Assembly (NCBI GenBank): GCA_019054805.1
Contig: JAHQIY010000002.1
Location: forward strand, 1,054,001-1,118,000
Direction: 5' to 3'
DNA length: 64,000 nucleotides
Source of the DNA: Brachionus manjavacas
Taxonomy: Eukaryota; Rotifera; Eurotatoria; Ploima; Brachionidae
This document shows, piece by piece, positions 5,701 to 64,000 of the stretch. The notes below the pieces were generated by a model. The model was not told the origin of the DNA and searched no databases. It worked only from the letters and a program-made list of their open reading frames with translations. Position 1 is the first letter of the stretch; each line of letters begins with the position of its first letter. Made by a program: the position numbers and the translations under genes.

Positions 5701-7185
5701 CTTGGCATCAAAAATTATTCAAATTCGGCATTTGATACCAGATAATTATTTTGGTTAAATCATAGAAAAAAAATTTAGTAGCAATTTTTTTATTATAGGC
5801 AAAAATAATGATTTTATCGGCTCAAATTTTATTAGCAATTATTCCACAAATAAACCTAAATTTAATAATCATGAAAAAAATATTTTTGATTTTGTTCTAT
5901 GAATTTTTTTTCTTCAAATTTTTTCTGCTATGACGTGATCGTTTCGCCATTATTTTTTGTTGATAAAAGAAGAATTGACTTCTGAAATTTTTAAATTTGA
6001 ATTTTTTTTGAGATTAATTTAAAAAATATTAAAAAATTTTGAGAAAAAATATTTTATTTTAGTTTTAATACAATACTTTTGAAAAAAAAATAGATCTAAA
6101 AAAACTATGGGCGTTCTTGAGTTAAAGCTTAATTCAACAAGCAGACAACAATTCTTAAATGAAGTTCAATTTTTTTTAAGATAAAAAGAGACTTTGCCAA
6201 TAATTCAAAGGGTTTCGGCTTTGTGCGCTTTAAGGACTACAACGACCAGTGTTCAGTGCTTGGCAAAAAACATTTCATCGATGGTCGTTGGTGTGATGTT
6301 AAAATTCCCAATTCTCAAGTACAATTTTGGGCAAAAAAAACTTGCAATTTTTTCTAAAATTTTACTTTAAAGGAGCCGGAAATTTGTCGAAAAATATTTG
6401 TGGGCCGATTGAGCGAGAGTTTGAACACAGCCGATCTGCATGACTACTTCTCTCAGTATGGTCAAGTGATAGATGTGTACATTCCGAAGCCGTTCCGAGC
6501 GTTCGGCTTTGTGACTTTTGTAGAAGCCGATGTGGCACAGGGCCTTTGTGGTGAGAGTCACATCATAAAGGGAGTAAGTGTGCATGTGAGCCGAGCAGAT
6601 CCCAAAGACGACCCGAGTATGTGTTCGTCTAGCAAATACTCCCAAAGTGTTCACAACTTCAGCCAGTTTAGCCGAGAGCTAGACAACCGCAGGTTCACAC
6701 CTCATCAGCATTCCCAGTCGTTTCAGCAAATATCTACTCCGCAGAAAGGAACCAAAAACCGAAAATTTGAGCAACATAACTATGATTCATATGACAGAAG
6801 AAACGACATTCGATCACCCACTATGCCCTCCACTTTCAATGGCCACAACAACACGGCTATCAACAATCTGCCGAGTAAAAATTTCGGAAATAAGGACCAA
6901 ATAGCGGCGATGATGAACATGTTTAATCCGATGATGGCTGCGTTTATCCAACAATTGGCAACGCAGTCTAATGTTATGCCACAAGGGCCTATCGATTTAC
7001 ACAAGGCGCACAATCCTCCGTCTATGACTCATCACCAAAATGCAATGCCCTCTGGAGTGCCTGCACCTCCATGGACTAGCTCAAATGCTCCACTACAAGC
7101 AAATCATGTGAATACTCCTTCTGGTCTTGGCATTGGCGCTGGCCACAATTACAATTCACGCTATGCTAATGAAAAACGATTTTAA
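2710..7185 (+). CDS. TARDBP: TAR DNA-binding protein 43 (TDP-43), RNA-binding protein
   Basis: Spliced gene, exons 2710-2864, 2915-3000, 3087-3247, 6181-6318 and 6373-7185; 450 residues, every junction GT-AG and in frame. The family is a nuclear hnRNP-like protein that binds UG-rich RNA and controls splicing and RNA stability. Visible order: N-terminal oligomerisation domain (1-80, with [10 protein letters not shown] as in vertebrates); a bipartite basic stretch [16 protein letters not shown] (83-98) where the known nuclear localisation signal lies; RRM1 (~105-180, RNP2 LIVLGI, RNP1 KGFGFVRF); RRM2 (~187-262, [13 protein letters not shown]). The C-terminal ~190 residues are rich in N, Q, H and P and not glycine-rich, but keep a Met/Ala-rich patch [19 protein letters not shown] (~357-375) matching the conserved helix of vertebrate TDP-43. 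The first ATG is used; a second Met codon follows directly. Length is close to the human 414. Confidence 0.96.
3820..5330 (-). mobile_element. Decayed non-LTR retrotransposon RT fragment (3' part), interrupted by a small DNA element
   Basis: Read on the minus strand, about 4680 down to 4130 gives the C-terminal end of a non-LTR reverse transcriptase: [24 protein letters not shown] and LYKSLVGS, then [16 protein letters not shown] before the stop near 4130. There are in-frame stops and at least one frameshift. The part upstream on the minus strand (about 5330-5214) is separated from it by the inserted element at 4722-5205. The 3' untranslated part (about 4140-3820) includes GAGCTCCTTCAG-type and TTCAGGAAAA-type motifs shared with 11770-11895 and, in part, with 45145-45230. 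It lies in antisense orientation within TDP-43 intron 3. Jockey-like by its C-terminal sequence style; not assigned further. Confidence 0.75.
4722..5205. mobile_element. Non-autonomous hAT-type element (MITE), 484 bp, with 8-bp target-site duplication
   Basis: The element starts TAGTGTTGGAATCCGT and ends with the imperfect inverse ACGGTATCCAACACTA. It is flanked on both sides by CTCTAAAA (4714-4721 and 5206-5213), which fits the nTnnnnAn 8-bp duplication typical of hAT transposases. Inner sequence is comparatively GC-rich, with repeated CCG/CGG motifs in both orientations. No transposase frame is present, so it would need one in trans. It is inserted in the decayed RT fragment of TDP-43 intron 3. 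A partial second copy is at 47408-47509. Confidence 0.87.
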
Positions 7186-37765: not shown

Positions 37766-38379
37766 AGAAATACATTTGATTTACTTTAGAAGATAGTTGT
37801 AGATTTGTTATAAAGATTTAACAAAATCTAAAAAAAAAAATTTTTAAATTAATTCAGATAGAAGAAATCTGATTTTATTTTCAGATTCCTAAGGATCGAT
37901 TACCTATATTTGCAATTTTACATTGTGGGAAAAAATGGCAAAAAGGCAAAAAATGAGGGTGTATTGTCGAAGAGCCAAAAAAGTTGTTTTTTCGATTTTT
38001 AATGGCAAAATCAAATTATTTAATTTATAAAAACCATATTTTCTAGTAGATACTTTTATGCTCTATTCAAAAATATAATCAGTTTTGGGGTGTATTTGGA
38101 AAGTTATGAGGGTGTTTTGATTTGTTTTTTTTTCATTCGAAATTTAAAGGTGATGACAAAATTTTTTTTTAGATGAAAATGGGTGTATAGTTAAATTCAG
38201 ATAATTAGGAATAAATTTATCAGAATAAAATTTCACTTTTATAAAAATTTTGGTGATTTACACCCGGTGTTGTTTTTTCGCAATCCTGATGGGTGTATGT
38301 TTTAGACATTATTATATAAGATAAAATTAAATAATTTTAATAAAAACTAATTTTAATTTAATTAGAATTTAAACCAGCA

Positions 38380-38912: not shown

Positions 38913-41900
38913 TCATTTTATTTTTAGCAAATGTTTAATTCTGTATTTGAGTAAACAATAAAAATGAATGGAGTCGTAAACGGAATTGTTAGAAAATTTG
39001 CTTGGTCTCTTAAACAACGTATCTACGGATAAACTTTTATTTTTGGTAATAGTAGTTTTTTCACTTACAATTGATGTGGCTGATTTTTTTTCGAAATTCT
39101 TTGACATGCTCAAAGACGAGTAGCTAAGTCTTAAACTATCGCGATTGTAAAATATTGTTCTACTTTTATTCATTAGATCAACCATCTCAGATGATCTAAA
39201 ATTGGACTGATCATCGCTTTGATCCAAATCACCTTTATCTATCAGGTGATAATAATTTTTGGAATGAAAAATTTGACTTTTTTTTTCAATTTCAGTTAAA
39301 ATAATTTCGTTTTCTGATATAAAGCTCGACACACTCTGGACTTTGGTGTTATTTTCTTGTTGTTCAACTTTGACGTTCTCAAAGCTCGATCTGTTGCTCT
39401 TAATCAACTCTAGTTCTTGATCTATTTGGTTTTCAATGTCGTAGGATTCATCAAGAAAATCATTCTGGAAATTGAACGTAGCCTCGTCTTTGGATGGACT
39501 AGTATTATTTACTTGAACTATTCTGCCCTGAAGCTGGGTGGTTGATTCGTCTTTGGTCAAATATTTTCCCAAGTTTTCTCTGGTTAGTTCAGTAAATGTG
39601 TCTAACGCTTGTTCATTTAAGATCTCCAAGTCGATCGAATTTAATTCAGCTACTTGGTAAATTAAGCGATTTCTGTTGATGACTTTTTCTATCGCTTCAA
39701 CTGGTTCTGGTGCTTAAATATTCAAAGTTTATTATAAAATAGGATTAATTTTTGTTTGATTGAACATTAGAATGTGTCGCTAAGATCATCAAAAGATAAT
39801 TATTTGTGAATTAAAAATAAAAAATCAAATTAAAAAATAAGTTTTTTTAACAGAGAACTTTATTTTAAATCCTAATTACGACAAAAATTAACTAAAAACT
39901 ACTTACTAAACAAAAAATCTTGATTTTGATCAAAAGACAAAGTTTTTTTTAATTTTAAGTCATCGATTTCTTTTGACTTTTTATCACTATAAAACACTTG
40001 ACACGAGACTAAAATGTCACTTTCTGTTGTATTCGGGTTTGAGTTGAAATTTAATTCAAAATTTGTTAGCGATTCTTTATTTTTATTTGACTTTTCTTCT
40101 GAATTTTTTAAATTTTCTTTAAATATTTGTTCATTCACCAACGATTTAGAAAAATTTCGTTTTTCGTCTGAATTAATTGAAGTTTTTTGTTCATTTATTT
40201 CACTTTCTTTGTCAAATTCAATTGCTTTTTTTTTCTTGTCCGATTCGAACAGATTTTCCACCGCATTCTTTTGACCAGTTTCATTTAGCATCTGATCCAA
40301 ATTATCTTGAGGATCAAATTTTTTAATTTTATTATTTTCTTCATTTTTTTCTTCTAAAGATTTTTTCCAAATCTTTTGTGTTGATTTTTTTTCTGAATTC
40401 TTTCTGTTTAAGCTCAACTTGATTTGCTTAATCAAGCTTAATTTTGTCTTCTGAGTGTTTTCTTCATTTTTTTTCGAATCAAATTTCAAACTATTTCTTA
40501 TTTCTTGTGTATTGTGTTTCCTATCTTGATAATCATCCAGATTTAAAAGATTCATTACGTTTTCTTTTGTTAAAAATTCTTTTGAATAATTAATTGAAGT
40601 TTTAGCAATTTCAACATTTTGATCTTCAGGATATTTATTTTTTTCTAGTTCGATTCTATTTTTATTTTTGGATTCATCTTAAAAATTGAAATGTCAACAA
40701 AAATTTAATTACTTAATATTTTAAATACTTGAAAAAAATGTTTCCGTTTCAAATAATTTTTCATTTTGATTTAAAATTAGATTTTCCTTTAGAGATTGAG
40801 AATTTTTTGGATTCGAAATTTTTTTATAATTTTCTTCTTTATCATTGTTATTTTCATTTTGAAATTTTTCTTCCTGGTTTTTATTCTCAATTTTAATACC
40901 AGTATCCAAAAGACTTATTCTCGATTCCTTTTTTGTCTCATTCAAAACTATTTTGATCATTTCTTTATTTTCGCTCATCTTTCTTGTTGAATTTAGGCTT
41001 AAATCGTTATCTGCCGATAACTCAAGGCTTATTTTTTTTATTTTAGAATCTATTTTTTCTATTCCATTAAGAGATTTTTTAATTTCCTGATCATCAATTT
41101 TCGTTTCGTTGTCTTTCATTTTTAATTAATTTAAATCAAAATTTTTATTTTCTCAACTTACTTGATAAATTATTTTCATTGTTCAAGTTATTCCAATTAT
41201 TTTTCAAATTCACTTTTCTTATCGAATTTCTGTTTGAAATTTTATTATCTTCTGCCATTGCTTCGTGGCTTTTTCGTATGGAATTATTTTTTAAATCAAT
41301 TTTATCTTTTTTAATATTTTCTGCAAATGTTTCCCGAGTTGTTTGCATTGAATCATTTTTTAAATTAACTTGATCTTTTTTAATATTTTCTGCAAATGTT
41401 TCCAGAGTTGTTTGCATTGAATCATTTTTTAAATTAACTTCATCTTTTTTATTTTCTGAAAATGCCTCTGGGCTTGTTTGAATTGAATCATTTTTTAAAT
41501 CAATTTGATCTTTTTTAATATTTTCTGCAAATGTTTCCAGAGTTGTTTGCATTGAATCATTTTTTAAATTAACTTCATCTTTTTTATTTTCTGAAAATGC
41601 CTCTGGGCTTGTTTGCATTGAATCATTTTTTAAATCAATTTGATCTTTTTTAATATTTTCTGCAAATGTTTCCAGAGTTGTTTGCATTGAATCATTTTTT
41701 AAATTAACTTCATCTTTTTTATTTTCTGAAAATGCCTCTGGGCTTGTTTGCATTGAATCATTTTTTAAATCAATTTGATCTTTTTTAATATTTTCTGCAA
41801 ATGTTGCCGGGATTGCTTGTGTGGAATCATTTTTTAGATAAATTTCATCTATTATGTTAAAAGGTTCTTTTTTTTCTTCATTATCTATTTTTTTATCTTT

Positions 41901-42612
41901 TTCTCCGTTTTCTATCGTAAATAATAAAAAAAAATTGATTTTTTATTCAAAATTTACTTGATAAATTTTTTTCGATGTTAAAATTATTAAATTTGTTCTT
42001 TAAAATTTTCAAATCCTGAATATTCTTTACTTGAATTTTATTTTGTTTAGTAATTTTACTAAATTTCTTGATTTCACTTATTTTATTATCAGCTTCTAAT
42101 TGCTCTATTTTACTAAAATTAAAATCTTTTGTCTCAATTTTAATTTCCTTTTTTAAATTTAATTTCTTTATCGCAGGTTGTTCTTCATTTGCCGTCTTTT
42201 TCTTTACTAAGTTCAAATTTTCTGGTCTCAAAAAACGTCGTGTTTTTTTGTTAATAAAAAGCTTTCGACTCTCATCACAGTTTTTATCATATCTTTTTGC
42301 ATCAAGAGTAATGAATGTTTTGGGGTTTGCTTTAATTCTATACTTTTTAGTCCTTGTTAGAAAATCTGATTTTTCATCACAATTGTTTTTTAGAATTTTT
42401 CTCTGAAGAATTATTTTTCTCTTGTTTAAGAAATTTCTTCTAGTAATTATATCAAAATTTTTGATACATGCATATCTTTTATTAAGTGTCTTGGCGAGAG
42501 TAATATCTGTAAATGCTAGGAGACTGAGATGCAAAATTTTTGTTTCAACTCTTTTTTGAAAATAGAACGATTTTTGTCGGTTCTTCCCGCTTTGGTTCAT
42601 CCTATGATCCAT
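38913..42612 (-). CDS. Unrecognised Lys/Asn/Glu-rich protein with internal tandem repeats
   Basis: Five exons on the minus strand: 42612-41958, 41911-41162, 41112-40729, 40677-39907, 39712-38913. They give 1,119 residues ending at a TAA. All four introns are 46-194 nt, GT-AG and in phase 1, and three exons end in the same Ser/Ala codon context (TCA-A|GT). Exon 1 is very basic (RRNFLNKRKIILQRKILKNN). Exon 2 has nine 22/23-residue repeats. Exons 3-4 are charged and low-complexity (EKKSTQKIWKKSLEEKNEEN). Exon 5 is more ordinary in composition (VINRNRLIYQVAELNSIDLE, ending KYRIKHLLKIK). No signal peptide or membrane segment is visible. Likely largely disordered. No family is recognised; function unknown. 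The joint frame-keeping of all exons is the main evidence that it is a real gene. Confidence 0.75.
41230..41870 (-). repeat. Coding tandem repeat: nine units of 66/69 bp alternating in two types
   Basis: Type A encodes LKNDSMQTSPEAFSENKK-DEVN and type B encodes LKNDSMQTTLETFAENIKKD with ID or VN. They alternate B-A-B-A-B-A-B-B-B' in protein order. Near-identity at the DNA level between A units and between B units shows that the A+B pair (135 bp) was duplicated as one block recently. The terminal units are more diverged. Frame is kept throughout. Confidence 0.92.
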
Positions 42613-46092: not shown

Positions 46093-49000
46093 ATGGACGA
46101 GCGACACTGGTGGATCGCGCAGCGAGCTGCTCAGGCGTTCTCAATCGAAGCATCCAGTGGTTATCTGGAAAAATTTATTTGCGAAACTTCTAACTTTGAA
46201 AAGATCAGTAATTTTTTGTGCATGAATGGAAACAACAAGCTCTTTTTTCTAAGTACAAAACTCGAATCTGGAACTTTTGGTGAAATAACAATTTATGAAA
46301 ACTTGCTCCGCATTCCCAAGCAATATCTGGAAAATCTGGAAAATACAGTTATTCTCTATTTTATAAGACATGACTCTATACAAGAGGTTAGCCCGACTCA
46401 GATCCACAAAGAGGTATATTGTGGTGAAATTAAAAAAGTTTCCCATATACTGCATAATGTATACAGTGATCTTTTACTAACAATGGTCGAGACTAGCAAC
46501 AATTGGGGAAACTGTAACGAAGCAAGCAAGGCTCAAATTATACGCAATATGGAAAAATACATTAATTCAATCAATGAAGTATCATTCGATAGTCAATCAC
46601 AAAAAAATATGGTAATTAATATTAAAAAATATTTTTAAACATTTTATTTAATTATTTTAAATAAAAAAAGATGCTTAAACGAGTTGATACCGAGGCTCTT
46701 TTGGAGCTTAAGCAACCTAGGTTGAATCCTGACTCGCCAGTGATTAAATACTGCGAGGATTTAGCTCTGGAATGGATGACTACTATTGAGAATATTCTGT
46801 CCGACATTTGTGATGAACGATTCATTCATCAATCAGTTGGACCTAATAGTGAACTTGAGCGATGGCAGCGAAAACAGCGTCTCTTGAGCAGTTTAACTGA
46901 ACAATTAAAAACTAAAGAATGTAAAAGTGTTATAAGTGCTTTGATTGCAGCCAAGTCTAAAATACTCAAAAAATGGAAGATTATTGATGCTGGGTGAGTA
47001 AATTTTAGTTTATTAAGGATTTGAATTTTCTAACTTCAATAGGAAATAAAATTTATATGAATTAGTTAAGTATCAATAAAATTTTATTAATTTTGCAAAA
47101 GATGGAATCAGAAGCGTAATAGAGAATCTAAAAATATTTTAATTTTGTTCATCAAAATTTTCATTAAAAATCAATCTTTATGTTATGATTTTTTTTTCTT
47201 TTTCACTCCTGATGGGTAAAGCATATTTAGTATCATGGTGTTTGACCATTAAAGTTTAAAGTCATCAGTGTTGAGAAAGAGAGAAAGAAAAATAAATCAA
47301 AAAAAAATTTAATATAAATGAATATTTTTATTGAAAATGCGATGGACAAATTTTTTTCTTGATTTTTTGATTAATTATTTATACTAAATTAAGCTAATAA
47401 TGGTAATAATAGCCGTCCACAATCAAGTTGGCCGATTAATGCGGACACAGTCATGGTTTCTAAAAATTTTGTCCGGTTAACTATCCGCTTGGCACGGATT
47501 CAAACACTAACCCTCAATTTTGTTAAATTAAATTTCTGAAAAGGTTTTTTTTTTTTAATTTTTGGAAAGTTTGCATAAAAATTCGCAATGCAAAAAAAAA
47601 AATTCACATTAATTTAACACTCTAACACCGAATTTTTTTTATAGGTTAAGTACTAGAAGGGTCCAAAAAAACCCTTTAAAAATATGCTTTTTTGATAACA
47701 TCAAGTACCATAATTATTCAAAATATGTTAGAAAAATAGACTGAATTTAAAAATAAATGTCTCTTATTAATTTTTATTTTGGTTTAAAAAAAATGTATAT
47801 TTTTAAGTAAAAATTTTAAATTATTTATAAAAAAAATTAGATACAAATACAGTTTTTTTTTTAATTCGTATTCGTAGCTTGTTCTTAGCAATTTTTACAG
47901 ATCGATTTAAAAACCTTCTCTTCTAAAGAAAGACCACATGTAAATTGTTTAAAATTTGTCACAAACAAAGCTCGATTTGTTTCGATTACGGAAACAAATT
48001 GAACTTCATAAATTCTTGACCACATGGCTTTGAGAGTAACATTTTGGCATTAAACACTTCTTGCATAAAAAATGCTGATAAAAGCTAACACATCTCTTTA
48101 TTCATCTCTTCAAAATTTAGGATCTACTGTTTTCTGATGACAATTGGGACAATTCAATATAAATTTATCATCGAAAAGTCAGAAATCATGAAAAATTCTG
48201 ACAATTTGGTCTAACTTTCTCATCTAAAATTTATCGTTTTCCTAAGACTTGCCACTTCTCCGTTCTCAGTCAATCCAATATCATTCTTAATTTTGAATAT
48301 TTTTCAATGAGTGTTGCTTATTCTTCTTCAGGCTATTCATTACCTAATTATTCGGTATTACGTTGATTTGGTGTTCCTATTTTTTCTTCAAAATCTTTAT
48401 CAAAGTTTTAAGTATCTTTATAATCATTATGATTATGATCAGAGACTTCTTGCTGGGTATCATCCGCATTTCTAAGAAATTAAAGAGCTTGTAAGATAGC
48501 TTTCATCGAGACTTGGTTCAAAAAGTAATTATATAAAATAGAAATTATTGAAATGAAGTAAAGTTTGAGATTAAAAGCATAATTAGCCTTGTCTTTACCT
48601 AATTTTACCAAAAATAATACAATATTTTTGGAGGGTTCAAAAATAACCCCTTTTTATATTTAAAAATAATTATTAGCTTTCAATATTTTATATTTTTCTA
48701 AGTAAAAAATTTCAAAAGTTTTTTTATTCAATGATTTCCATTAAAATAGTTTCAGAAAAATTTAATTAAAAATAAAAATAAAAATTCTGTGAAAATTTAT
48801 ATTGCTATGAAATTTTCATGCAATCAAGTCAGTATTGCATTAAAAAATCGCCTGGCAGTGATGTGTAACAGGGCTATTTGGTAAGATTTTATAAACATCC
48901 TAAAAAAATATTTTGTGAATAAAAGAAAAATAATGAAATATTTTTAGAAAAAACCGAAAGATCATATTTTAAAAATTTGATTTTTTTTCTTAACTAAGAA

Positions 49001-52000
49001 ATAAAATTTTTCATGATTGAATTTTTTTGGTTTAGGTTCTGAAGATAAATAAAAAATTGATTTTAATCTTTTATCTTTAATATCAAAAATTTAACTGATT
49101 ATGTGTAAATTAAAATTTCAAATGTTTTAAATAAAAATTATAAGTATTGAAATTTTTTATTCAGGAAAGAATAAAATTATTTGTTTTAATTTCTTTTTAA
49201 TTATTGAAATATGATTTTTAAAAAAATTCACATAATTGTCATATTCTTTTTAATTGAATTTTTTTAATAAAAAACAAAAAAATTTTTGCTTAAAAAATTT
49301 TAGAAATAAATCAAACAAAATAAAAAATATTAAAAAATATATAAAAAATATAAAAAATCAAGATATAAAAAAATTAATGACTTGTAATTTTTATATTTTT
49401 TAAAATTCTTGAAATAAGTCAAAGTCCTAACTTGCACTTGACTTGTGACTTGTGACTTTTATACAACTCTGTTTTTTTTTAAATATTTTTTGTTTAATTG
49501 ATACCTTTCATTTTCCACTAGCGATTTTGATATTCGCCTATCTTTTAGCCGTGGGTCATTATTTAAAAATATTCTGTATTTATAAAAATATTTTAATAAT
49601 CAGCGGCTTAGTCATAGAGGGGTTGACCGATACTCAAGTCCGTTTATCCAAAAATTAAGAGAGACTGAGTCCCCTTTAAAAGTTCTATTTATTAAAAAAA
49701 GTGAAAATTTTTCAATTAAATTGTAAATTTTCAGCAAAAAAAAATTTTTTTTTTCATTAATTCCAAATATGATTTTTTAAAAAAAATTTCCCCTGAAAGC
49801 ATCAACATATCTTAATATTTTAAATCTATGAAATTTAACTTTTATTTTCTTATAAAATGGTAAAAGTAAATTTTCAATAAAACTTTATTTGAATTGAAGA
49901 ATAACAGATGCCCAAAACGAGTGTAGAGATAAAGTGAAATTTTTGGAATCTCTAAAGAGACCTATTGATCAATTTTACCAGGAAGCAACACCGATAACAT
50001 GCGTCACTACTGCATTACCAGGTTTATGTACTGCTATGAGAACAGTCGAATCAGTATCAAGGTACTACGCAAGACAGGGTTACTTAGGCCTTTTATTCAC
50101 CAAAGTTACTAACCAGCTAGTCAATGTTTGCAAAGAATATTTACTAGAAGCGGCTCAAACTGTTAGCAATCAGCAATACTTTTGGCCAACAATTTTCAAA
50201 GAAATCGAAGAGTACCATGATTTGCAAAAAATTTTAGAAACTAATGATTTTAATCATGTAAATAAAATTTTTTATAAAAAAAAAAATTAGTTTTTTTTTT
50301 AAGATTCAAAAATTAAAAAGTACTGATAGCGCTGATTTTAGCAAATTCAGTGATAGTCTATTTCAGCGTTTAAAATCTTGTCTAATCGTGCAGGCAAAAT
50401 ACAAAGAAGCGTTCAGAAATTTGAGAGATTCGCTTGGTGGCAATCTAGCTCTTTCTGGTTTTCCTTCAGTTTCTTCAGTGCATACAGCCGAACAAAATTC
50501 GGGTAGTTTACGCGAGCACTCAGTTATTAGCAAGAAAACATCATCAAACCGCAAGACCGCCATTGAGAGCGGACGAGCAGCCGGAATTTTGATGTCTGAA
50601 GAAGACGTCATCTTTGGTCACTTGGACATGTTTTGCCAACGAATCCGATATCTTATTGACCAAATGGTATCCTTGTCCCAATTTCAACTTCTGTTCAAAT
50701 CATCGTCAAATTTGTCCAGGCCAAAGAGAGAAGATTTAAGACTCACTGACGAAAGAGGCATACAATACGACTCGGAAAGTGATGAAGATTTTGATGAAGA
50801 ATTTGAAGTAAAAGAAAAAAGCGAAGTGGTTTTAAAAGACTTGGACCTGGGCGATTATTCTTCCAAGCCATCATTGGCGGTTTTGATAGAAGAAAATGAA
50901 GAGACAAAGCGAAAGAAAAGCTCCGTAAAAAAAATCAATGAGAAAATTGAATTCAAATCGGAGGGAAATTTGAGTACGTCCGATCTTGGATCAGACGAAT
51001 ATTTGCAAGAAGATTTTAAAGATGATACCACATCTGAAAGTCCGACTAAAAGTTTGCTTAGCACAACCGAAAGACTGTTTAATACGGAAAAAAATGTAGA
51101 AGCTGAATCGAAAAGAATATTGAAAAAAGCTCAGACTTTGTCAAAAGAAGACATAAAATTAATGAGTAATTTTTTTTTAATTTTTTTAATTTTTTTTTTT
51201 GAATTAAATTTAAATTTTTAGAAAAGTATTATAGTAGAAAAAATGAAGGTCCGACAGTCAGTCATATAATTGAAGATCATATCAAATTAATGAAAAATTC
51301 AATGAAAGAAGTTAAATCTTCACATATTTTAGATGTTGGTACTAAAGATTCCAATGTGTAAGGATTTGTTTCAGAAAAAAAAATTTCAAAATTTTATTAA
51401 TCTTAAAAAAAGATTTCAAGAATCCTATCAGACATTTTTGAATGCTCAGTCAAATTTGGAGAAATTTCTTGCGGCTTATTTAAACGTTATCTTTTGTAAA
51501 ACAAAAAAAACCCACGATGGTCTTAATGTACTAACGACGTAAATTTTTTATTTAAAAAATTTTTATGTGGATTAAAATTTTTTTCAAGATTTTTACCTGT
51601 GAGCCAAAGAAATATTTTAAGGCCGATTATAAATGATAAATATGTTGAAATATTTTCGATTTATCAGACAGACTTAAGTGAAACAGAGGATAATTTCGAT
51701 TATTACAGGGTATTTATGAAAGTTTTGTTTTTTAATTTTAAGAAGATTTTTTTTAATTTTTTGAAGTAAAGAATTAAAAAATAATAATTTTTTGATCTTT
51801 AACATTTTTTTTAATTCAAGAACAATCCACCAATTTTAAGAAATGCTCCACCAATTGGTAAATTTAGTATAAATCTGAAACATTATTTATTTTAAATGTT
51901 TAAGGTGGTGCCATATCATGGGTCAGGCAAATGTTGAAAAAAATTGATGAACCAATGAAGGTTTTTAAAGAAAATAAATATATAAATAGTCTTTCAGGTA

Positions 52001-55000
52001 GAATAAAAAAATGTTTAATGAAATCATTCAGTGAAATCTTTTTTAGATTTTTGGCTCACTTTAAAACAATACAATAGCTTGACTTTTGCAATGATAAACT
52101 TCGAAAATGACTATTTAAGCGCTTGGAAGACAACTATTGACGAAGCTAAAAATGGTCTTAAGGGCTATTTGATGAGAAAAAAAGACGAAGATTACATTTT
52201 TGAAATAAATGCTGACGAAAAGTGACTTTTCTTAAAACTTAAAATGTCTTAATTAAAAAAAAATCTAGATTACTTATCTTGTTCCAAGAAAGCAAATGGC
52301 TGTTAAGACTGGGAATAGACATACCCAATTCAGCAAGGGAGCTTTTGGCTCAAGTAATATTATATAAGTTTAGCCCAAAAATGTTTGTCCGATATTTTAA
52401 TTGACAAAGAATTATTATAAATTTTAGTAAGATTTACCAAATTCAATACACTAATACTTCGAATCTCTTTACTTTGAGAAAAAGTTATTTAGAAAACTCT
52501 GAATTATCAAAAAAATATTTTGTCATCTTTGGATTTGATTTTTTTTCAAAATTTTGAATTAAAATTTCGAACAAGCATTTTTGAGTGCTGTATTTTTAAT
52601 TTTAAAATTAAATTATAAGGAAAAAAAATTCAAACAATACAAGTCTAATCTAGACATGCTGTTAAGAAGCTATAGAGAAGTTTTGAAAAAAATTCCATAC
52701 CATTTACTGGACCTGTTTGAACCTCATATCATTCAAACTTTAGATCTTTGCAATCCAGGCTGCTTTATTCTCACGTGGAATAGTTTAAATATTGATTCGT
52801 TTCTAAAAACAGTTGAAAATGGCATTAAGAAATTAGATAATTTAGTCTGTCTTGTACGAGACTCGAAGGAAGCGACTGTTTTGAACTCAATTGAGAAAAT
52901 AAGTCAAATGTATCTTTTTGATCATGAGCTGGCCTTCAGCACTACCTGGAATCCGGAGGATTTTTTGACTGAAATCGGTGCTTCGATTGACAGCATTGGT
53001 CAACGAATTAAAAATCATTTTACCTTGATCGAAGAAAAAATTGAGGAAATTGGAAGCGTTTTGATAGCCACACTGAAAAACTCTGCAAATTTAAAGAAAA
53101 AATCCAAAATTACTTTAAAAGATATGCTCAATTCGGAGCCTAAACTAACTATTTTGAAGGATTTCTACTCAGAAAAGCTGTATAATGCCATGCATAATTC
53201 GATTCTTAAGTCTTTGCAATTCTTGGCACAAGCTTGCGGGTATGAATCGACTAATCATTTGGTGAATATTAATCCAGATGGTGCTGATGCACTCTACTAC
53301 ATGCGCCTTAAGTCAGGTGACGACTTGACACGTAACAATAATTCACAAAAAAGACCACTTTCTGTCAGCTCGGTTCTCAGAGACACTGACTGGTCTGACA
53401 GTCACAAACTGGAAAAAGCTTTTCTCAAGTAAGTTAGAAAATATGCAAAATTTTAGTTCTAAACGATATTAAGTTAATTTTAAAAAAATTGAACTTGAAA
53501 TTTAATCAAAAAATTTACTGAAAAATTTTATTTAGATTGAAATTTGTGTTGAAATTTGCCATACCAGATGTAATAACAGATCCATCTTTGGATTTATTGC
53601 AAACAATAGTTAAAGCAATAGCTTCCAAAATTGTTGAGACATCAAAATCAATCCACTGGATTCATCCAAAACAAGATAAACTGTATTATGATTGTCTTAA
53701 CAAAGACGCCGATATCAAAAATACTCTTGCTATATTCGATAGATTGCTTTCAGGTAATTTTATCCTTTTATTTCGAAAACAAGTTTTCTTCAACTAATAA
53801 TTTGAATATTTATTTTTTGTCGATCTTGTTAGTTAAATTTTTACTTTGTTTATCTAAATTTTGGTATTAAGTATTGAGAAAAATTAATCCTTTAATATAC
53901 ATTTTGTTAAATTTTTACTAAATAAGTACTGTTTTATTAATTTTTGTGCTAAATTTACAACAGAATTTTATTTCTTAATCATAAATACTTGATTATAAAT
54001 CGAATTCCTGATAAAAAAGAAAAATTAATCATTACTAAATAGCTTACTCCTAGTAGACCGCCCCCGCAAGCGTGCTTGTCGTAGCTTATTAGTATTATTA
54101 TTACTTGGATTTAGATTTAGAGGCTTTAAACAACTCTGATTTTATTTTTTAATAACTCAAAAAATTTTCGAAAATTTGAATAAAATAAAATATTAAAATT
54201 TATAAAAAAAAATTCCAAAAGAAACTTAATGAACATAGTATTACTAATTTTTTTTAATTTTTTAAACTAAAATTTAGCAGTTCAAGTTTCTTACCACTAG
54301 GATACTCAAAATTCCTTAGACCATATTTGCATTATTTAAAAGGAAGATTCTGAAAGATTATTTAAAAAAGGCTCTATGAAGTTTATGATCAATTTTTTAT
54401 GCTAAAAATGATCAAATCAAGTTTTAATTATAAATTGAAATAAATTAATTGTTATTTTTTAATAGAATTAATGCAGAGATATTTTTGGATTTAGCATTCT
54501 ATGTTAAGCAAAAAGTTAACTATTGACTATTGCTGTTAATATGACTTACTATGGAAAGAGTTATCATTTTTATGCTTTGAGTTATGGTTTTACTCATTTT
54601 TTTCAATTTTCCTATTTATTAATATTTAAATTAATTTTTAAATCTTTTATTTATTTGATTAAAAGATAAAAAATTATTTTTTCGATTATTCTCCAAAAAT
54701 TAATTGTAGAAAATTTTAGCATATGATTAGTATGCTTAAAAAAGATTTTTAAAATAAATTTTTAGGTAAAATATCCCGTAAAATTAACGCAATTTTTTTG
54801 ACAAAATTAATAAAATAGGATTTAATTTTTTGATTAAAATATCGTAGAGTGAAAAAGAAATTATTCTAATAAATTTTTAAAAATTTTCTTTGAATAGATT
54901 TGATTTTTATAATATAAAAATTAGAAATTTAAAAAAGTAAATCCTTACCTTAAACACAAAAAACCTCATCCCTAAACTAATATTATATTAATCGGTAATA

Positions 55001-58000
55001 TTCAAAATCAAGCCTAAAATTTACCCTAATTTGCCAAAGCTCGAGACGTGTGGCTACGTCTCTCGTTTGATTTAATTATTTAAATTTTTATTTACATCAA
55101 TTTTTAGTAAGAATTTTTCAATATAATAAAAAAAATTATCAATTAATTAGCTAATCAAAAAAAATCCCTTTTTTATTTTCATTATTCCGGCAGCGGAGCA
55201 ACCGGTAAAACCTTGTTCTAGTTAAAAAATAACAATTTATTTCATTAAAAAAACTTGATTTGATCATCATTTAGCATCAAAATTGACTGAAAAAAAGACT
55301 TTGAATTGGAATTTTTAAGAATTAACTAAAAATTTGATTGAATAATATTTATTATAAAACAAAAAATCAATCAATTTAAATCACCTTAAAAATCATGCCT
55401 TATATTTTTTAATCGATTTAATGAAAACTTAAAATTCATTTAAGAGATCGGACCGTCAATTAAAAACCACATGATTCACATACGCCTATTTGAGTTTTTA
55501 TGGAAAGAAGATTTAAATGGTCTTTTTAATGACTTTATGAAAAATGAACCAGACGAACTTGTCATCAAAAGAGAAGTAGACCGCTTAGCCAAAATCGAAA
55601 AGCAAGTTTTTGAAATTCCCCAATATCTGAACATAGGTCCGGCTTGTCTCAACACAGAATCCATAAAAGTGTCCTTGAAAACGTTTTCTTACAGCTGGAA
55701 ATTCAAATACGCGTCGGTATTGCACGAAATGGCTCGCACACGACTCCAGGAATGCATTGTGTATAGGGAAAATGTGCAAAAGCGTCTCATGGTAAATGTT
55801 CAAACTTTGGAACAACTAAATGACGCTTTACGACTTTTGGAAGAGCTGTCCGACATGGAAAACAAAATAGACAAAATCTATTTGCCAATTGAGAATATTT
55901 ACGCTGATCTGCAGCGCTACGAGCTCATTCTGACCAGACAAGAGATCGAACAAGTGTCAAGTCTAAGAGACAATTGGTCTCAATTGATGAACAATGCAGA
56001 AATTGTGCGCTCCACTTTGCTCCAGGACAAAAGAAATACTCTAGAGCAAGAGCTGGACAAACAAGTGAAAACATTTGTGGTGGAAGTTATCAGATTTAGG
56101 AATTCATTTGACGCTACTGGGCCCTCGGTTGTCGGCATCGACCCCTACGAAGCTTTAAGAAGACTACACGAATTTCAAAAACAGTACGACACATTTGACG
56201 CCAGGCGAAAAACACTCGACTCCATCAGCATTCTTTTCGGACTTCAGTGCAAGCCATTTCCTGAGCTGGACAAAACTGGCGAAGAGCTAAATCTCCTCAA
56301 TCAACTGTACAAAGTGTACCAGGTTTTTCTCAGCTTCGACAAACAATTCCGCAACACTCTATGGAGCGATGTAGATCTCAACAAAGCATTCAGTAACATT
56401 AAGGCCTATTGGGAGGAATTTTTAGCTTTGCCAGAAAAATTGAAAGAAAATTGGGAGGCTTATTTTGACTTGAAGAAAGCTCTCAAAAAATACATAGATG
56501 TATTGCCAATACTGATTTTGCTAAATGAAAAAGAGATTCGAAATCGCCACTGGCTTCAGGTCATGCAAGTGACCAAAAGTGCTTTTAGACTCGAGGCCGC
56601 TGTTTTCAAGCTAAACGATCTGATCGACATTGGACTCGACTTACACTCGTATGAAATAGAGGAAATATGCAAATCGGCCAAGAAAGAACAAGAACTTGAG
56701 AGCAAAATGAGAACTATCGAGGAAGAATGGAACGAACAAGTGCTAAGCTTTACCAATTACAAAGATTATGGCGAAATTTGTTTTGACAAAGAGTACACTG
56801 AAAGATTGCTGGAACAGCTGGAGGACGCTCAGGAAATATTGGCCAACATGCTGACCTCAAAATATGTGGGTCCATTGAGAAGTGAAGTGGCCAGTTGGTC
56901 GGAAAAGCTGAAAACCATTGCCGAAGTGTTGGAACTGTGGCTGGAAGTGCAAGAGCTTTGGATCAATTTGGAGTCGGTGTTTTCCACTCCGGCAACTGTC
57001 AAAGAAATGCCCGCAGAGGCCAAGCGATTTCTCCGAGTGGACAAATCTTGGATAAGGTCCCAAAAGCAGTCGTATGATATGAAATCAGTGCTGCAATGCT
57101 GCTTGGGCTCATCGGTCCAAGAGAACACTAAACGAGTCTTGCTGAAGGATATTCAAAAAGAGCTTGAAATCTGCTTCAAATCGCTCAATGCTTATTTGGA
57201 CAAAAAAAGACGCTTATTTCCGCGCTATTACTTTCTCTCGAATCCTTCATTGCTAGCTTTGTTAAATCATTTTTCGAATAGTGGCAACATAAGTGAGGTA
57301 AAGTCGTACTTTTCCTCTTTGTTTAGTGCATTAAGAGACTTGAAGTTGGAGGAGTTGAGAGACAGAGATGACATACTGTCTGTGTCGAGCACATCTCTGT
57401 CCGAAAAGCCAAAGAGCGGAGCAGCGTTTCAGTCTGGATCGGAGAGTCCGAGTTATTACCGGGGCACGGCAAAAGAAAATGGCGTACAATTGTCTGAATT
57501 GGAAATAAGTGAAATTTACAGTGCGGATGGCGAAGTGCTTGTTTTAGCTAGGAGGGTAAATTTGGAAAAAGGCACAGAGTTATGGTTACCAAAGTTAAAA
57601 GAATCGATCGGTGAGACCATTAAGAAGTACATGAGCGTGTCTTTAATGGATCTGTTGAACAACATGCCCATCGAAGAGTTGACTTTAAAGTATCCAACAC
57701 AGATCTGTTTAGTCGGATTAAACTATGTATGGTCAAAAGAAGTTGAGACCAGCATTCTAGAGCTTAAGAATGAAAGAAAAGCGATGAGCATGGCCAGCAA
57801 AAAATTTTCCGCAATTACTAATAGATTTTTATCAATGCTTTCTAAATCTAGATGGCCTAATATTGATAAGCCGGTGTTGACTCATCATAAGCTTAGATTA
57901 GAAACAATGGTCACTGTAAGTAGCCGAAATTGGCTTGTTTTTCTAAAGAAAATTTAAAAAATAAAATTATTTTTAGATCTAAAAATTTCCTTAAATTCAT

Positions 58001-61000
58001 AAATTCATTATGAAATTTTTTAACTGCCTGATCAGACTTTTAAAAAAAATTATTAAAATTAAGTATGCTATTAATATTTTTAGAATTAGAAGATTGACAG
58101 GTATGCTAAAAAATTCAAAATTATTTAAGATCGTATCTTTATAATTGATACAAAGCTTATAGATTCCGCTTGACGTAGAATTAAACACATAAAATTACAG
58201 AAAAAATCTGCATCTAAACCAAATTTTTGATCAAATTAGGAAGAGAAAAAAGTTGTTAAGCTCGCTTATAAATTCATAAAGTAATTTAAATCAGATTATT
58301 GTGGAGGGTAATAAAAGAGGCAAATGACGATCAATTTAATCATCTAATTTGGTTTGTATTAAGGATAACATTGGATAACCAGTTTCGGTTCGAAAAAACA
58401 TATAAAAGTATTCCAAGAAAAAAAAATGGTAGTTTGTCTGAAAGGAATTAATTTTACTAAAAAATTTTCATTAAAATTGACCAATGTTTTATTCACTTTT
58501 GTATAGAATTAATCTTTTTTACGTGAGTTCTCTTTTTATTTGTTTTGTTTTCAATTTGTAATTTATTTCTACCTTAACCATATTTGCTAAAAAACTTACT
58601 GCGGTGACTTAATAATTTTTATCATTTATTTTAAGCATACAAATCCGAATCTTTTCTTTGAAATTCAAATATAAATTAATATATTTATGTGATGACTTCA
58701 AATGAACGGGTAGCAAATGTCCTTTATGTTACCAATTTAAAAAAGGATCTAATTAAATCAAAATTGAATTTTATCAAGAATAATCTAAAAAGATGTCAAA
58801 AGAGTTATATTGAAATACACCTATAGAAAGTTATATTGAAATAAAACGATAGTAAAAATGATTAATAATTGAAGAAGTTCGGTTTTGTGAAGTTCAGTTC
58901 AAAAGAACAGAACAAAGAATAAAAAGATTTAATAATTTTTTATCTAAAAGTTTTAATATTGTAATTTAAAAATTTTGAATTAAATAAGTTTATAAATTGA
59001 TAGTTTTTCTTCTAAGTGTTATTTCTAATTAATTTTTTTCTTTTTAGCATTCAAATTATTTGAGAGATCTATTTGACAATATAGCAAATAAAAAAATAAA
59101 AGATTTGAATGATTTTGAATGGCAACGCTGTTTCAGAGTCTATGTTCTGGATGAAAATGGTAAGAAAAATTTAATTACAAAAAATAGATCACCATTTTTG
59201 GACCCGAACTAATTTCACTGGTTTGCATTTTTAGACATTGATTTTAATTTTTTTGGTGCACGAGGTATTGAAATAGTTGTTTTATTATTGTATTTATCCA
59301 TAAATGGATATTGCGGTGTAATTTTCTAGCTCCGCAAACCTCATTTTTTGTTCAAATTTGTATTAAAATTGAATCCTCTTTTTTTTAAATTTAATAAATA
59401 AAAATTAAAATACTATCTATTTTCAATTTTAGTTCAAATGACTAAAATTCAAAATAGAAAATTTAAAAAAACAAAAGATTTCTAACTTTTTAATATTAGC
59501 TTCGAGCGTTAATCCAAAATTCTGTGTTCTTGACGATAACTTTTCATATGGCAATGAATTTTACGGAATAGAACAGCAATCAGTAATTACACCTCTAACC
59601 GAAAGATGTTTTTTGACAATTTTGCAAGCAAGCCGAATAATGAAAGGCTCTATAGTCTGCGGCAAACCAAACTCGGGAAAGACACAAATTTCAAAAGTAA
59701 TTTTATTCTATTTAAAAAAAAGTCTAATTTTATTTATTTCTAGGGTTTAGCTCAGTATATGGGAAAATTTATGTATATTCTTTATTGTTCTGGCCAAACT
59801 GATCATTCCTCTATTGCAAATTGTCTTCAAGGAGTCGCTCAAGTAAGTCTTGAATCCTGGGTTTTTTAAAATTTTTAAATTTTAAATTTCAGGAAGGCTC
59901 TTGGGTTTTGTTTGATGAGTTACAAAATCTAAGCGAACTATGTCTGTCCTGGTTTAACGAATACTCAAGCGGTATTTACCAGGCATTAAGAAAACGGTCA
60001 TCATTAGCGCAATTATCTGATGGAAAAGAAGTAATTTCTTATATTTTTCTTAGATTCAACTCTAATTATGCCTTTAAGATGTCTGTGAATCAAAATTTTT
60101 GCTTGATTTCTACTCTTAATGTTTCCAAACATTCTGGCCAAGTTCCGCTCCAGTTAAGGTCTATGTATAGAGTTATTGCTCTATTGGAACCTGATATTGA
60201 GGTTATTATCAAAGCAAAGTGTATTCAATACGGCGTCAAAGGCTCAAACATTTTGGCAACAAGGCTTAAGACAATTTATGACTTGTGTCAAGCGAGTCTA
60301 ATGTCCTTACAGAGCAAATTTCAATTAACCATATCAACTTTTTTGTCTGTCATCAGAATAATGTATGATAAACAAAATCTGGAAAGTGGGGACTCGAGAC
60401 CAGGTAGTCTTGCAGGAGCCCAGTCGGCAAACAAATATAGTGCCGCAAAATTAGAGAGTAAATTTTTATTTAAAAATCAGCATTTCTTAAATCTTGAATA
60501 TTTTTTATCAGTGTTGTCTAATCAAACTTTGTCAATAAAAGAGTTGCCGAGGAAAAATCGACTGGCTCTGGCAAACTATTCGAAAAGCGAACATGCTCAA
60601 ATTGGTCAAATGCTAATTGACAATATTACTCCCAGACTTGATTCAAATGATTCTAAAACTTTTAAAAAAATAGTACAGGAGATATTGATGTTTAAAGAAG
60701 ACTCGAAAATAGCTCAGTCAAGTCATTCGACAAATTTAACTATTTTGGAAAAAATTATAACAGAAAAATCTACTAATGACTACGGATTTTTTCCGAATAA
60801 AAACTGGATAGATAAATGTTTACAAATTTATACAGTATCTAACACATTTGAGGGTAAATTTTTTCAATAAGTTTATATTTTTTTTTTAGATTTTCTTTAA
60901 GGAATTATTTTGTGCGGGCAACCGTGTACTGGCAAAACGTCTACACTAAATGTTTTGGTTGATGCCTTAACTGAATTAGGCGAGCGAGATCTAAGTGCTA

Positions 61001-63482
61001 GCCAAAATAACTTTGTTTTTAAACAAAAAATTAATTCTCATCATGCACACAAAATTAGAAAGTAAGACTTTTTGCTCAGATAATTTTATAAAAAAAAGAT
61101 TTAAAAAAAAATATATATATTTTGAGCTCTATGTTTAGATTATATTAATAATCATGAAAAGACAACTTCTACACTTTTTTTCGATTCTTTTGGATTTTTG
61201 AAATATTTTTTATTTAAAACTGGCTTTTAAAATAAAAGTTAATAGTTGAGAGTTTAGGGATTGAGTTTTTTTTAAATATAAGTGTGAGATTAATTCAGAA
61301 AATCAATGAAAATAATGATATAAAAAATAAAATACAATTGAAATGTTAGATAAATTGAATAAGAAAATATTCGAAAAAATTAATTGATAAGAGAAGGAAA
61401 GAAAGAGAAACTTCGATAAAACAAAAATTTTCCAGTTTTAGTCAAGTTAATATCATGAAAAATCAATTATTGTTTTAAAATGCTTTTCATAAACCATTTT
61501 CTTGGCAATATTGTTTAAATTTTATTAAATATTCATATTTCATCACATTAAACAACATTCATTATTTTTCAACTATATTATTCTTTAAAATTTCATTATG
61601 CTTTTTCCATACTAAAAACAAAGTCCAATTAAACTTTCTAAAATTTAAATGATTTCATTTTACTTATTGTTTACGTTCAATTTTACTAAAAAATTATGTA
61701 TTAAAAATCTTATAAAATTAAAATCTGAGTTATCTTTTGACATACTCGAAGCTCACCTTTAATTTTGTTCAGAGCTCTTTAGTTATTAAGCTGAGTTCGA
61801 GGAAATGATCTCATATATCAGGAACGTTTAATAAATATTTCAGAGCACATCTTTTAAATCTGATAATTTTATTATTTATTTTTAGCTAAAAAGTTTTTTC
61901 TCCAAATTTATTTTAAAAAATATAGAATTAATCATTTGGCTGTCGATGATGAATCACTTTTATTTGGTTCATTGGCTCAAAACAACGAATTCAAAGACGG
62001 CTTTTTAACATATGCCTTACGAAAAGCTTGCAGAGTACAGTTTAAATAAAAAAGAAAAAATTTTGCTTATCTATTTTGTAAAGAATGAAAGCACAACTTG
62101 GCTTTGTTTGGATGGACAAATTTTACCAAACTGGTGTGATAGTTTTAACTCGATTTTTGATTCTGGTCTTTTTATGCAGCTAAAAAATGGCGATCACTTG
62201 AGAAACAATTGCAAGATAGTCTTCGAAACTGGCGATATTTCAAATGCTTCACCATCTCTATTATCAAAAACAGTATTTTAACCATTATTTTTATACAAAA
62301 ATGATAAACAAAAATTCAAGGGCATAATATGCTATGGTGAAGATTTGGTGGGATGGAGGTCTATAGCGAGATCATGGCTTGAGTCTAGGATCCAAAATGA
62401 AGTCCAGGTGAAAATTTTTAATTGACAAAGCAAATCTTTGATAATTTTTTTTCATTTCACTGAAAAAAAATACATTTCAAAGAACATTAGCAATTAACAA
62501 AATTACTTTAACCCAGATCCCTAACTAATATTAAATTTTAGCAAAACTCTTCCCTTAATGTTGCTCAGGTAAGCCATAGAAAACATTTATGCTTTGACAA
62601 GCTTAGTCTAATTTTAGCCTTTAACTTTCATTTTTTGCATTAATCTATTATTGCCTTAAAAAAAGATGAAATAATCAAACTAATTTTATTCTAAACAAAT
62701 AAGTGCCTACAACGATGTTTTAGTAAAACAATGGATGAGATTAGCAACTATTGCTTAAAAGAGTGCAAACCAATGCTTCCAGTATGTGAAGAGAGCTTAT
62801 TTATATCCTGTCTTAATCTATTGGCAGCGATGCTGAATGAAAACACGAACATTGGTGGTGAGGTCCACATAGAAAGATTGTATTTGTACTGTCTTATATG
62901 GACATTTGGAGGGGTGTTGGAACAAAATGATCAGCGTGGTTTCAGTGAATTGCTATATCGTTTGGTTACAGCTCTTCCCGACGACGATCTAAAAAGCTCT
63001 GTTTTTGAGTATTATGTTGACGAGTCTGGTGAATGGGATCTTTGGTCACAGAGGTAAAAATGTCAATTTAATTTACAAGTTTTAAAATGCTAAATATGAA
63101 CTTGCTTAAATCTAGCCCAATCTTAGAACTATGGACTAAGTCTAAGTAAAAAGAAAATAAAAAAAATAAATTCTATTAGTTTAAGGATTGATACTGAGTA
63201 ATAAATAATTTTCATTAAAAATTAAAAATTATATTAATAATAGATTTTTAACGTTACAATTAACACCCTATTAGATTTTAATTAAAATTCTATAAAGGGT
63301 GCCAGAGAACGTGTATATGGATAACATGGATTTATTGGGTAATGTTTATGTAGACACAATTGATTCAATAAGATGTAGAATTTTTCTGGAATTTTGCAAT
63401 CTGGCGCACAAAAATGTAATTCTGTTTGGACCGAGAGGCTGCGGAAAGTCAAAACTTTTACAAGAATTTATTCAAGAATTTG
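46093..63482 (+). CDS. Axonemal dynein heavy chain, DNAH5/DNAH8 type, N-terminal ~2,941 codons (continues beyond the window)
   Basis: Exons: 46093-46611, 46671-46993, 49900-50257, 50304-51165, 51222-51334, 51375-51538, 51589-51709, 51821-51857, 51905-51997, 52047-52221, 52269-52353, 52620-53428, 53536-53753, 55445-57915, 59048-59159, 59500-59696, 59744-59842, 59893-60853, 60902-61061, 61926-62034, 62084-62272, 62321-62407, 62542-62568, 62704-63053, 63298-63482. All are in frame. It is a motor subunit of the ciliary outer arm. Seen: tail (WKIIDAGITDAQNECRDKVK; RNAPPIGGAISWVRQMLKKI), linker (RHWLQVMQVTKSAF; LDKKRRLFPRYYFLSNP), AAA1 (GKPNSGKT, LFDE), AAA2 (GQPCTGKT, WLCLDGQ), start of AAA3 (GPRGCGKS). 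Odd: AAA1 motifs are strongly altered, an acidic/Ser-rich insert lies in the tail (50700-51165), and 62542-62568 is a 9-codon micro-exon. The junction 51335-51374 (40 nt, weak donor) is the least certain; 60458-60511 could be an extra frame-neutral intron. The start is the first ATG; an extra 5' exon is possible. Confidence 0.93.
47408..47509. mobile_element. Truncated copy of the 4722-5205 hAT-type element
   Basis: The reverse complement of 47420-47509 begins TAGTGTTTGAATCCGTGCC, then ...AAGCGGAtagtTaaCCggacAAAATTTTtAGAAACC and TGTCCGCATTAatCGG, following the left end of the 4722-5205 element with scattered changes. The other end was not found, so the copy is truncated. It lies in the 2.9-kb second intron of the dynein gene. 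Confidence 0.75.
49400..49470. repeat. GACTTG-rich dispersed repeat (copy)
   Basis: 'gtcaaagtcctaacttgcacttgacttgtgacttgtgacttttatacaactctg' is the inverse of the 9346-9420 stretch ('cagagttgtttaaaagtaccaagtaagtcc') with several changes. Dispersed and non-coding; in the same dynein intron as the hAT-type copy. Confidence 0.55.
54048..54110 (+). repeat. Solo LINE 3' tail with hairpin and (TTA)n
   Basis: TAGTAGACCGCCCCCGCAAG, then CGTGCTTGTCGTAGCTTATT and AGTATTATTATT, closely matches the 3' end of the LINE at 34490-34540 and the inverse of 7558-7620. It lies in the 1.7-kb dynein intron (53754-55444), the rest of which shows nothing recognisable. Confidence 0.7.
57916..59047. other. 1.1-kb dynein intron, no feature seen
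   Basis: Bounded by GTAAGT and TTTTTTCTTTTTAG, and AT-rich. No coding sequence, inverted repeat or transposon tail that I can recognise. Confidence 0.6.
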
Positions 63483-64000
63483 GTAAAATATTGTTTTAAT
63501 GCTTTAAATTTTGGTTCAAATAGTCAAAAATTTCTATGTTTAAATAATTTTTTATATTTAAATTTAATTGTTTAATTAATTTTAAAAAACTTCCTTAGGA
63601 TGATATTTTTTAAATGTATAAAACGTAAAATAACTTTTTAATAGGTTCAAAGGAATTATTTGTTCTATTCTTTATTTAAGTTTATTTAATCAAAAAAAAA
63701 GTAGAATAGGAAATCATCAAATCTGCTATTACTTCTAATAGAAGAGTTGAATTTTTATATTTTTTGATAATTATTTTATTCTATAAATATACTAAAAAAA
63801 TTCGGTTCAACCAAATATATTGTTTAACTTTAAATGAACGAGAATATGGCATCAAATAAATTCTCTTTAATTTTCTTAATTATAAAAGACAATTTTAGCT
63901 TTAATATCGAAAGCATGGACAAAAGTTGACAAATTTTATAATTAGAGAAAAGAAGGCACTTTATTTTTGTTTGATTTCAAACTTTTGTTTTAATGGCAAT
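63483..64000. other. Start of a further dynein intron
   Basis: The exon ends TTT-G before GTAAAATA at 63483, leaving phase 1. No continuing dynein frame (AAA3 Walker B region) was found up to the window end, so the next exon lies outside. Confidence 0.6.

Follow-up and report, generated by a model that had tools for sequence, protein, structure and literature searches.

The window, a stretch of 64,000 nucleotides at C2:1054001-1118000 in a genome of 114 Mb and 61 contigs, carries on its plus strand the first 23 exons of a dynein heavy chain gene, hereafter W, whose main ATP site departs strongly from the consensus. We put the probability at about 0.6 that W is a full-length, maintained duplicate of the DNAH5/8 class which now acts as a specialised, hydrolysis-impaired but nucleotide-binding chain for assembly or regulation; it is probably structural or regulatory and not an ordinary motor, because the main ATP site has been rebuilt and two key arginines have been lost. 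An earlier reading made from the sequence alone had suggested a specialised or motor-dead heavy chain in place of an ordinary outer-arm motor, and the first part of this is well supported by the open gene, the orthodox paralogues elsewhere in the genome, and the loss of the sensor II and arginine-finger residues, while we infer from the residues concerned that the motor may be dead.

W starts at window position 46093 (MDERHWWIAQR...) and, with the next 39 kb added, was followed to C2:1132499 (78499 in extended coordinates). The gene was modelled with a purpose-written spliced protein-to-DNA aligner, for which splice-site and codon scores were trained on other heavy chains of this genome, and alignment to the orthodox paralogue C13 gave 44 exons and 5086 amino acids in an open frame ending in ...RGVCATLKPY*. 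The model is collinear with C13 over C13 residues 94 to 4581 of 4586, with 4344 of the 4586 residues aligned at 25.9% identity; 17 of its 43 introns are 47 to 53 bp long, and GC3 is 0.352 in comparison to an intron GC of 0.207. The aligner bars stops by construction and renders short exons approximately. A stricter insert penalty yielded 55 exons and 4687 residues, and alignment to the second orthodox paralogue, C2b, yielded 48 exons and 4416 residues (C2b residues 202 to 4465 of 4471), with 25 exons identical between these two models; since the alternative runs differ, exon edges and insert lengths in W are approximate. A few exons have weak support, and the model includes some unusual donor sites.

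Separate exons of W matched the Pfam profiles DHC_N2, DYH2-5-8 coiled coil, AAA_6, Dynein_AAA_lid, AAA_7, AAA_8, Dynein_heavy (D6), AAA_lid_11, and Dynein_C, the last with E 1.5e-15 at the end of the gene, where it was also recovered by a genome-wide search. Five of the exons scanned with Pfam gave no match: in the tail, the first exon and the long acidic one; in the stalk, two exons; and, in addition, L010:1877-2623. The six AAA modules, the stalk and microtubule-binding domain (MTBD), and the C-terminal domain follow in order, AAA5 and the stalk/MTBD being placed by alignment only. The features that lie within the window are collected in Table 1.

Table 1. Features of the heavy chain gene W in window coordinates.
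Feature	Position	Strand	Basis
Gene W, DNAH5/8 (gamma) class	46093..64000, on to C2:1132499	+	Spliced alignment, Pfam, tree
N-terminal tail, exons 1-11	46093..53753	+	Model; 25% identical to C13 (1228-1239 residues aligned)
Linker exon	55445..57915	+	PF08393 DHC_N2, E 2e-87; PF25007 DYH2-5-8 coiled coil, E 4.3e-9
First AAA1 exon listed, carrying the N-loop (VITPLTERC) and the Walker A motif GKPNSGKT (59661-59684)	59500..59696	+	Model, Pfam
AAA1 exon with second strand (ILYCSGQTD; VFNCSDQMD in C13)	59744..59842	+	Model, alignment
AAA1 Walker B exon, LFDELQN (59908-59928)	59893..60030	+	Model, alignment
AAA1 sensor I (STLN, Asn 60118-60120) and small subdomain, sensor II Arg to Ser (60334-60336)	60079..60853	+	Alignments
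AAA2 P-loop exon, GQPCTGKT (60916-60939)	60902..61061	+	Model, alignment
AAA2 Walker B (WLCLDG) and arginine-finger site, Lys (62267-62269)	62084..62272	+	PDB alignments, multiple alignment
Dynein_AAA_lid exon	62704..63053	+	PF17852, E 4e-21
AAA3 P-loop exon, GPRGCGKS intact	63298..63482	+	Pfam, alignment

Sequence comparison places W clearly, by descent, among the axonemal dynein heavy chains of the DNAH5/8 class. When the linker exon was compared with PDB sequences, the nine best scored 308 to 380 bits and the tenth dropped to 220; the nine comprised a gamma-named chain (380), DNAH5 (339), four chains (309) whose names refer to an outer arm protein or to alpha, and three others that bear odd or unspecific names. 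The DYH2-5-8 coiled-coil profile (PF25007) scored 36.5 bits in W against a cut-off of 27, and in a tree of seven heavy chains of this genome, built on 4014 columns with AAA1 left out, W grouped with C13 and C2b at 100/100, standing outside both on a long branch. An orthodox DNAH5 paralogue, which had been proposed as something to look for, thus exists in two copies, C13 (C13:1.24 Mb) and C2b (C2:5.88 Mb), which are 63% identical over the main aligned block and both carry GPAGTGKTET, CFDEFNR and TMNPGYAGR; we take both to be DNAH5/8 chains from their grouping with W and from features typical of DNAH5. W resembles DNAH5/DNAH8, the gamma, outer-arm type, in its tail and linker, in having the DYH2-5-8 coiled coil, in the order of its AAA modules, and in its stalk and Dynein_C end, and differs from the orthodox chains in being only 23% to 30% identical to C13 by domain and in having lost the sensor II Arg, the AAA2 arginine finger, and the AAA4 P-loop Lys. 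The earlier description of tail, linker and AAA2 as DNAH5/8-like stands for the tail and linker, on the PDB ranking and the tree, but AAA2 is not especially so (27% identity to C13). Intron positions gave no signal, none being common to W and C13 or C2b and none common to C13 and C2b either.

The altered AAA1 strings to which the sequence-only reading had drawn attention proved to be real. CGKPNSGKTQ (59658-59687), LFDELQN (59908-59928) and ISTLNVSKHSG (60106-60138) all lie in frame in exons of one gene, Pfam AAA_6 (PF12774) matched this AAA1 with E 1.1e-10 for the Walker A exon and 1.6e-17 from Walker B onward, and because W is collinear with C13 a chance occurrence of the three strings is excluded. 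The alignment shows that the Walker Lys/Thr and Asp/Glu are retained, as had been noticed; that the surrounding consensus is gone is correct in so far as the orthodox motifs are altered, but the generic P-loop pattern GxxxxGK[ST] still fits and the sensor I Asn remains. The spacing between N-loop, Walker A, Walker B, sensor I, and sensor II (24/50/53/73 residues) is the same in W, C13, and C2b, so that the net length change from N-loop to sensor II is nil. In strand 2 of AAA1 the Asn of VFNCSD, presumably the glutamate-switch Asn, is replaced by Tyr.

Catalytic residues were identified by mapping PDB chain 3vkg to the Dictyostelium numbering with an offset of 1363, the residues listed in Table 3 of PMC8304172 being D2026/E2027, N2078, R2150, and R2410; residue roles were taken from that table and from PMC4879348. 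The sensor II Arg is Ser in W in the multiple alignment, where at 25% to 28% identity the position could be off by one or two residues, and Ser again in the separate PDB alignment through 3vkg. The AAA2 arginine finger is Lys at residue 62 of the PDB query, one beyond the stretch aligned with 3vkg; the five PDB alignments listed (7k5b, 7k58, 6zyw, 7kek, and 8j07 chains) show Arg there, and the multiple alignment agrees. On these alignments, the two arginines appear to be the clearest catalytic losses, and the sequence-only reading had passed over both. According to PMC4879348, AAA1 holds the complete catalytic set in all dynein isoforms; W departs from this rule at two residues, and the set of Walker A/B, sensor I, sensor II Arg, and AAA2 arginine finger is incomplete in it. 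Dynein itself offers a parallel in AAA5 and AAA6, described in PMC7215579 as degenerate AAA+ modules which, as in W, keep the AAA fold with degraded Walker motifs; W differs in that the degraded module is AAA1, the principal site.

Elsewhere in its ring, W retains the P-loops of AAA2 and AAA3 and, in AAA3, also the Walker B motif (FIDD), and the AAA4 P-loop reads GNIGNHLTS, without its Lys. The stretch from sensor II to the AAA2 P-loop is 178 residues in W versus 106 in C13 (72 longer). The stalk segments are also longer in the model than in the orthodox chains, with 187 residues to the MTBD (31 of which are spliced out as an intron in an alternative reading) versus 140 in C13, C2b, C6, and C16; the distance is 133 in C8a, a chain described below, and 122 in the incomplete model of C1b.

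Profile searches of the whole genome with AAA_6, DHC_N2, and AAA_7 identified at least 17 heavy chain genes including W; the searches score the best candidates only and the counts are therefore lower bounds. Of the 16 other genes found (again at least 16), 14 carry GPAGTGKTE and CFDEFNR, and 12 of these 14 orthodox loci have TMNPGYAGR at sensor I, with the variants TMNPTYAGR in C16 and TLNPAGKGYGGR in C1b, where W has GKPNSGKTQI, LFDELQN, and STLNVSKHSG. Between orthodox classes no other domain is conserved as well as AAA1, at 40% to 56% identity (C16-C13 50%, C6-C13 54%, C1b-C13 40%, C16-C6 56%), and it is 85% identical between C13 and C2b. When W was aligned with the heavy chains of the same genome, as had been proposed, its AAA1 fell to 26% to 28% against this 40% to 56% (28%, 26%, and 27% to C13, C2b, and C6, respectively), and its linker was 30%, 30%, and 27% identical to the same three chains. 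Identity to C13 was 23% to 30% in all nine stretches compared; AAA1 thus stands out in W because its usual extra conservation has been lost, the divergence being motor-wide. C13, C2b, C6, and C16 share the same residue in 121 columns of AAA1; W is aligned in 120 of these and keeps 56, in comparison to 92 of 121 in the orthodox outgroup C1b (Fisher p 3e-6), and for linker columns identical in the four orthodox chains the counts are 43/65 for W versus 30/61 for C1b (Fisher p 0.07). W keeps 38 of 81 such columns in AAA5, 26 of 65 in AAA6 and the C-terminus, and 13 of 19 in the tail. The tail and linker are thereby the best-kept parts, and since AAA5 and AAA6 with the C-terminus are as eroded as AAA1, the erosion is not specific to AAA1.

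One way to account for such divergence is that W evolves fast but is still a working motor, such as an outer-arm chain specific to sperm, with hydrolysis at AAA1 sustained by compensating changes. The retained P-loop, Walker B acids, and sensor I Asn with their exact spacing are in favor of this, as is the positive charge still present at the finger site as Lys, and slow hydrolysis by way of that Lys and the retained K/T/D/E/N could take place. However, C16, which at 14% to 36% identity to C13, C2b, and C6 outside AAA1 is about as divergent as W, keeps an orthodox AAA1 (50% to 56%), and because of this evolutionary speed alone does not explain the AAA1 of W. The Ser at sensor II and the model's stalk, of 187 versus 140 residues with 31 possibly intronic, also speak against a working motor, and we regard it as unlikely.

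As for whether W is a gene under maintenance, a neutral-decay control was run ten times from the C13 coding sequence, with substitutions of intron-like base make-up and without indels, until 26% identity was reached, and every run left 307 to 340 in-frame stops. The W model is open at a similar divergence, which argues that W has been maintained; as the aligner bars stops, a fairer measure is the coverage of 4344 of 4586 C13 residues in open exons, mostly separated by short introns, together with codon usage. The codon-usage index was 0.733 for W in comparison to 0.731 to 0.750 for five orthodox models, three of which set the scale, and synonymous sites with the base composition of introns would give 0.684 to 0.697. 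We infer that W is selectively maintained from just three features, namely its open frame, its AAA1 spacing, and its codon usage. A decayed pseudogene is contradicted by the open model.

The few weakly supported exons, the unusual donor sites, and the dispersed dynein fragments elsewhere in the genome, many with stops, could point to a recent pseudogene or an assembly artefact. Against it, the open model runs for 5086 codons to an orthodox C-terminus (Dynein_C E 1.5e-15), and no leftover orthodox AAA1 piece lies near W among the at least 39 genome-wide AAA_6 matches listed, the unassigned pieces being short fragments on other contigs. We therefore give this explanation very little credence, and a misassembly swap at AAA1 is likewise unlikely. 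A hidden orthodox AAA1 exon set inside W was also considered and rejected, as among the AAA_6 matches listed only the two altered pieces are found there.

Two further heavy chains with degenerate AAA1, C8a and C8b, were found, both on contig C8. C8a runs on the minus strand from C8:2371818 down to 2342534, with 56 exons and 4949 residues covering residues 367 to 4828 of the 4977 of C6, a DNAH17/DNAH9-like chain (1926 and 1873 bits), and 31 of its 55 introns are 44 to 56 bp long. The spliced score of its first 20 kb was 2564 against C6 in comparison to 1101 to 1671 against four others, one of its exons matched DNAH9 (E 8.5e-5) and DNAH17 (8e-4) and no other dynein up to E 1, and in the seven-chain tree without AAA1 it grouped with C6 at 96/96, so that C8a is a full-length chain of the beta, DNAH9/17 class. 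Its AAA1 retains neither the P-loop consensus nor either of the Walker B acids (FMN), and Glu replaces the sensor I Asn; the arginine finger is Thr, the AAA2 Walker B has no LDG, and the AAA4 P-loop is gone, while AAA2 and AAA3 still have their P-loops and AAA3 its FIDD. C8a has thus lost more than W. Its profile scores are 123 bits for AAA_7 versus 26.8 for AAA_6, and sensor I to II of AAA1 spans 93 residues versus 73 in C13 (20 longer). Descent of W and C8a from one degenerate ancestor was rejected (AU p 2.6e-26, 7 rows, with long branches that are not fully correctable). C8a thus suggests a second, independent case in which the same has happened to the usual partner class, beta. C8b (C8:232001-260000, plus strand) is a partial model with Walker A GPDSSGKR, Walker B FDR, in which the catalytic Glu is therefore Arg, and FFIDD in AAA3. 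Its spliced scores were 584 to 632 against five models; after extension, C8b scored 846 with part of C6, 760 with part of C16, and 708 with part of C13. A PDB search with one of its exons gave no match up to E 1.

The closest published idea we found in the literature consulted is the ghost gene suggested for human DNHD1 (PMC8754002), a vertebrate orphan gene which, like W, is a dynein heavy chain relative and no ordinary motor gene. W differs from it in being clearly of the DNAH5/8 class, and the likeness is drawn from the published description of DNHD1. Applied to W, the idea would be that of a functionless duplicate which decays slowly since truncated chains would poison dynein assembly. Besides the published description of DNHD1 in these terms, divergence along the whole length (23% to 30% to C13 in nine stretches), with AAA5 and AAA6 eroded like AAA1, would agree with it. 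Neutral decay to 26% would, however, have brought more than 300 stops, whereas the open W model covers 4344 of 4586 C13 residues; from N-loop to sensor II the net length of AAA1 is unchanged, and in both W and C8a the P-loops of AAA2 and AAA3 are kept and that of AAA4 is lost. We accordingly hold it improbable that W is a functionless duplicate. Among the titles and abstracts listed in searches of a limited set of openly licensed PMC articles, none reported that AAA1 is degenerate in a heavy chain of the DNAH5/8 or DNAH9/17 class.

Under the preferred explanation, W would have arisen by duplication and then specialised as a hydrolysis-impaired heavy chain. Its AAA1 may still fold and bind Mg-ATP, but with both the transition-state Arg and the sensor II Arg missing, it would hydrolyse ATP very slowly or not at all. 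In that case the ring would stay in one nucleotide state, which by analogy with the Walker B mutant described in PMC4879348 would be ATP-like, with low microtubule affinity and a bent linker, and the longer stalk of the model could disturb the coil sliding used by motors. The conserved tail would still permit W to join a dynein arm, where its role may be structural or regulatory, alongside the two orthodox chains of the DNAH5/8 class and perhaps in a single type of cilium or in sperm. A more far-reaching version, which we consider doubtful, is a matched set of pseudo-motors, in which W (gamma) and C8a (beta) would pair as the orthodox chains do to form a silent outer-arm-like complex, with C8b as a third member, nucleotides at AAA2 and AAA3 serving structure, and AAA1 and AAA4 retired. 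If true, such a catalytically silent arm could act as a brake, a spacer, or a sensor in some particular cilium or tail of a sperm cell. If the reading of W and C8a is true, non-motor heavy chains would be possible in axonemal dynein arms, and the two chains would serve as natural mutants that tell which parts of the ring are structural.

Some other observations were made in the course of the analysis. An orthodox heavy chain at C4:4267401-4270700 (minus strand) carries its AAA1 Walker B exon in two tandem versions, at 535-640 and 788-893 of the reverse complement, each of 106 bases and both with AG/GT edges; they are candidates for mutually exclusive exons at the main ATP site of the motor. 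Dynein fragments, many with in-frame stops, are dispersed over the genome: linker fragments on C23 (three places), C28, C29, C34, and C41; AAA1 fragments on C3, C24, C29 (three places), and C30 (two places); and a Dynein_C fragment at C4:6072837. Most linker fragments run from profile position 1 to about 155 with TAG stops, as if one decayed copy had multiplied. In the window itself, open frames at 35633-37785 on the minus strand resemble, as we take it, the reverse transcriptase of a non-LTR retrotransposon; a low-complexity protein with tandem repeats of approximately LKNDSMQT.ETFAENIKKDQ is encoded at 41145-41942 on the minus strand; and an RNA-binding frame at 6358-7185 on the plus strand presumably resembles TDP-43.
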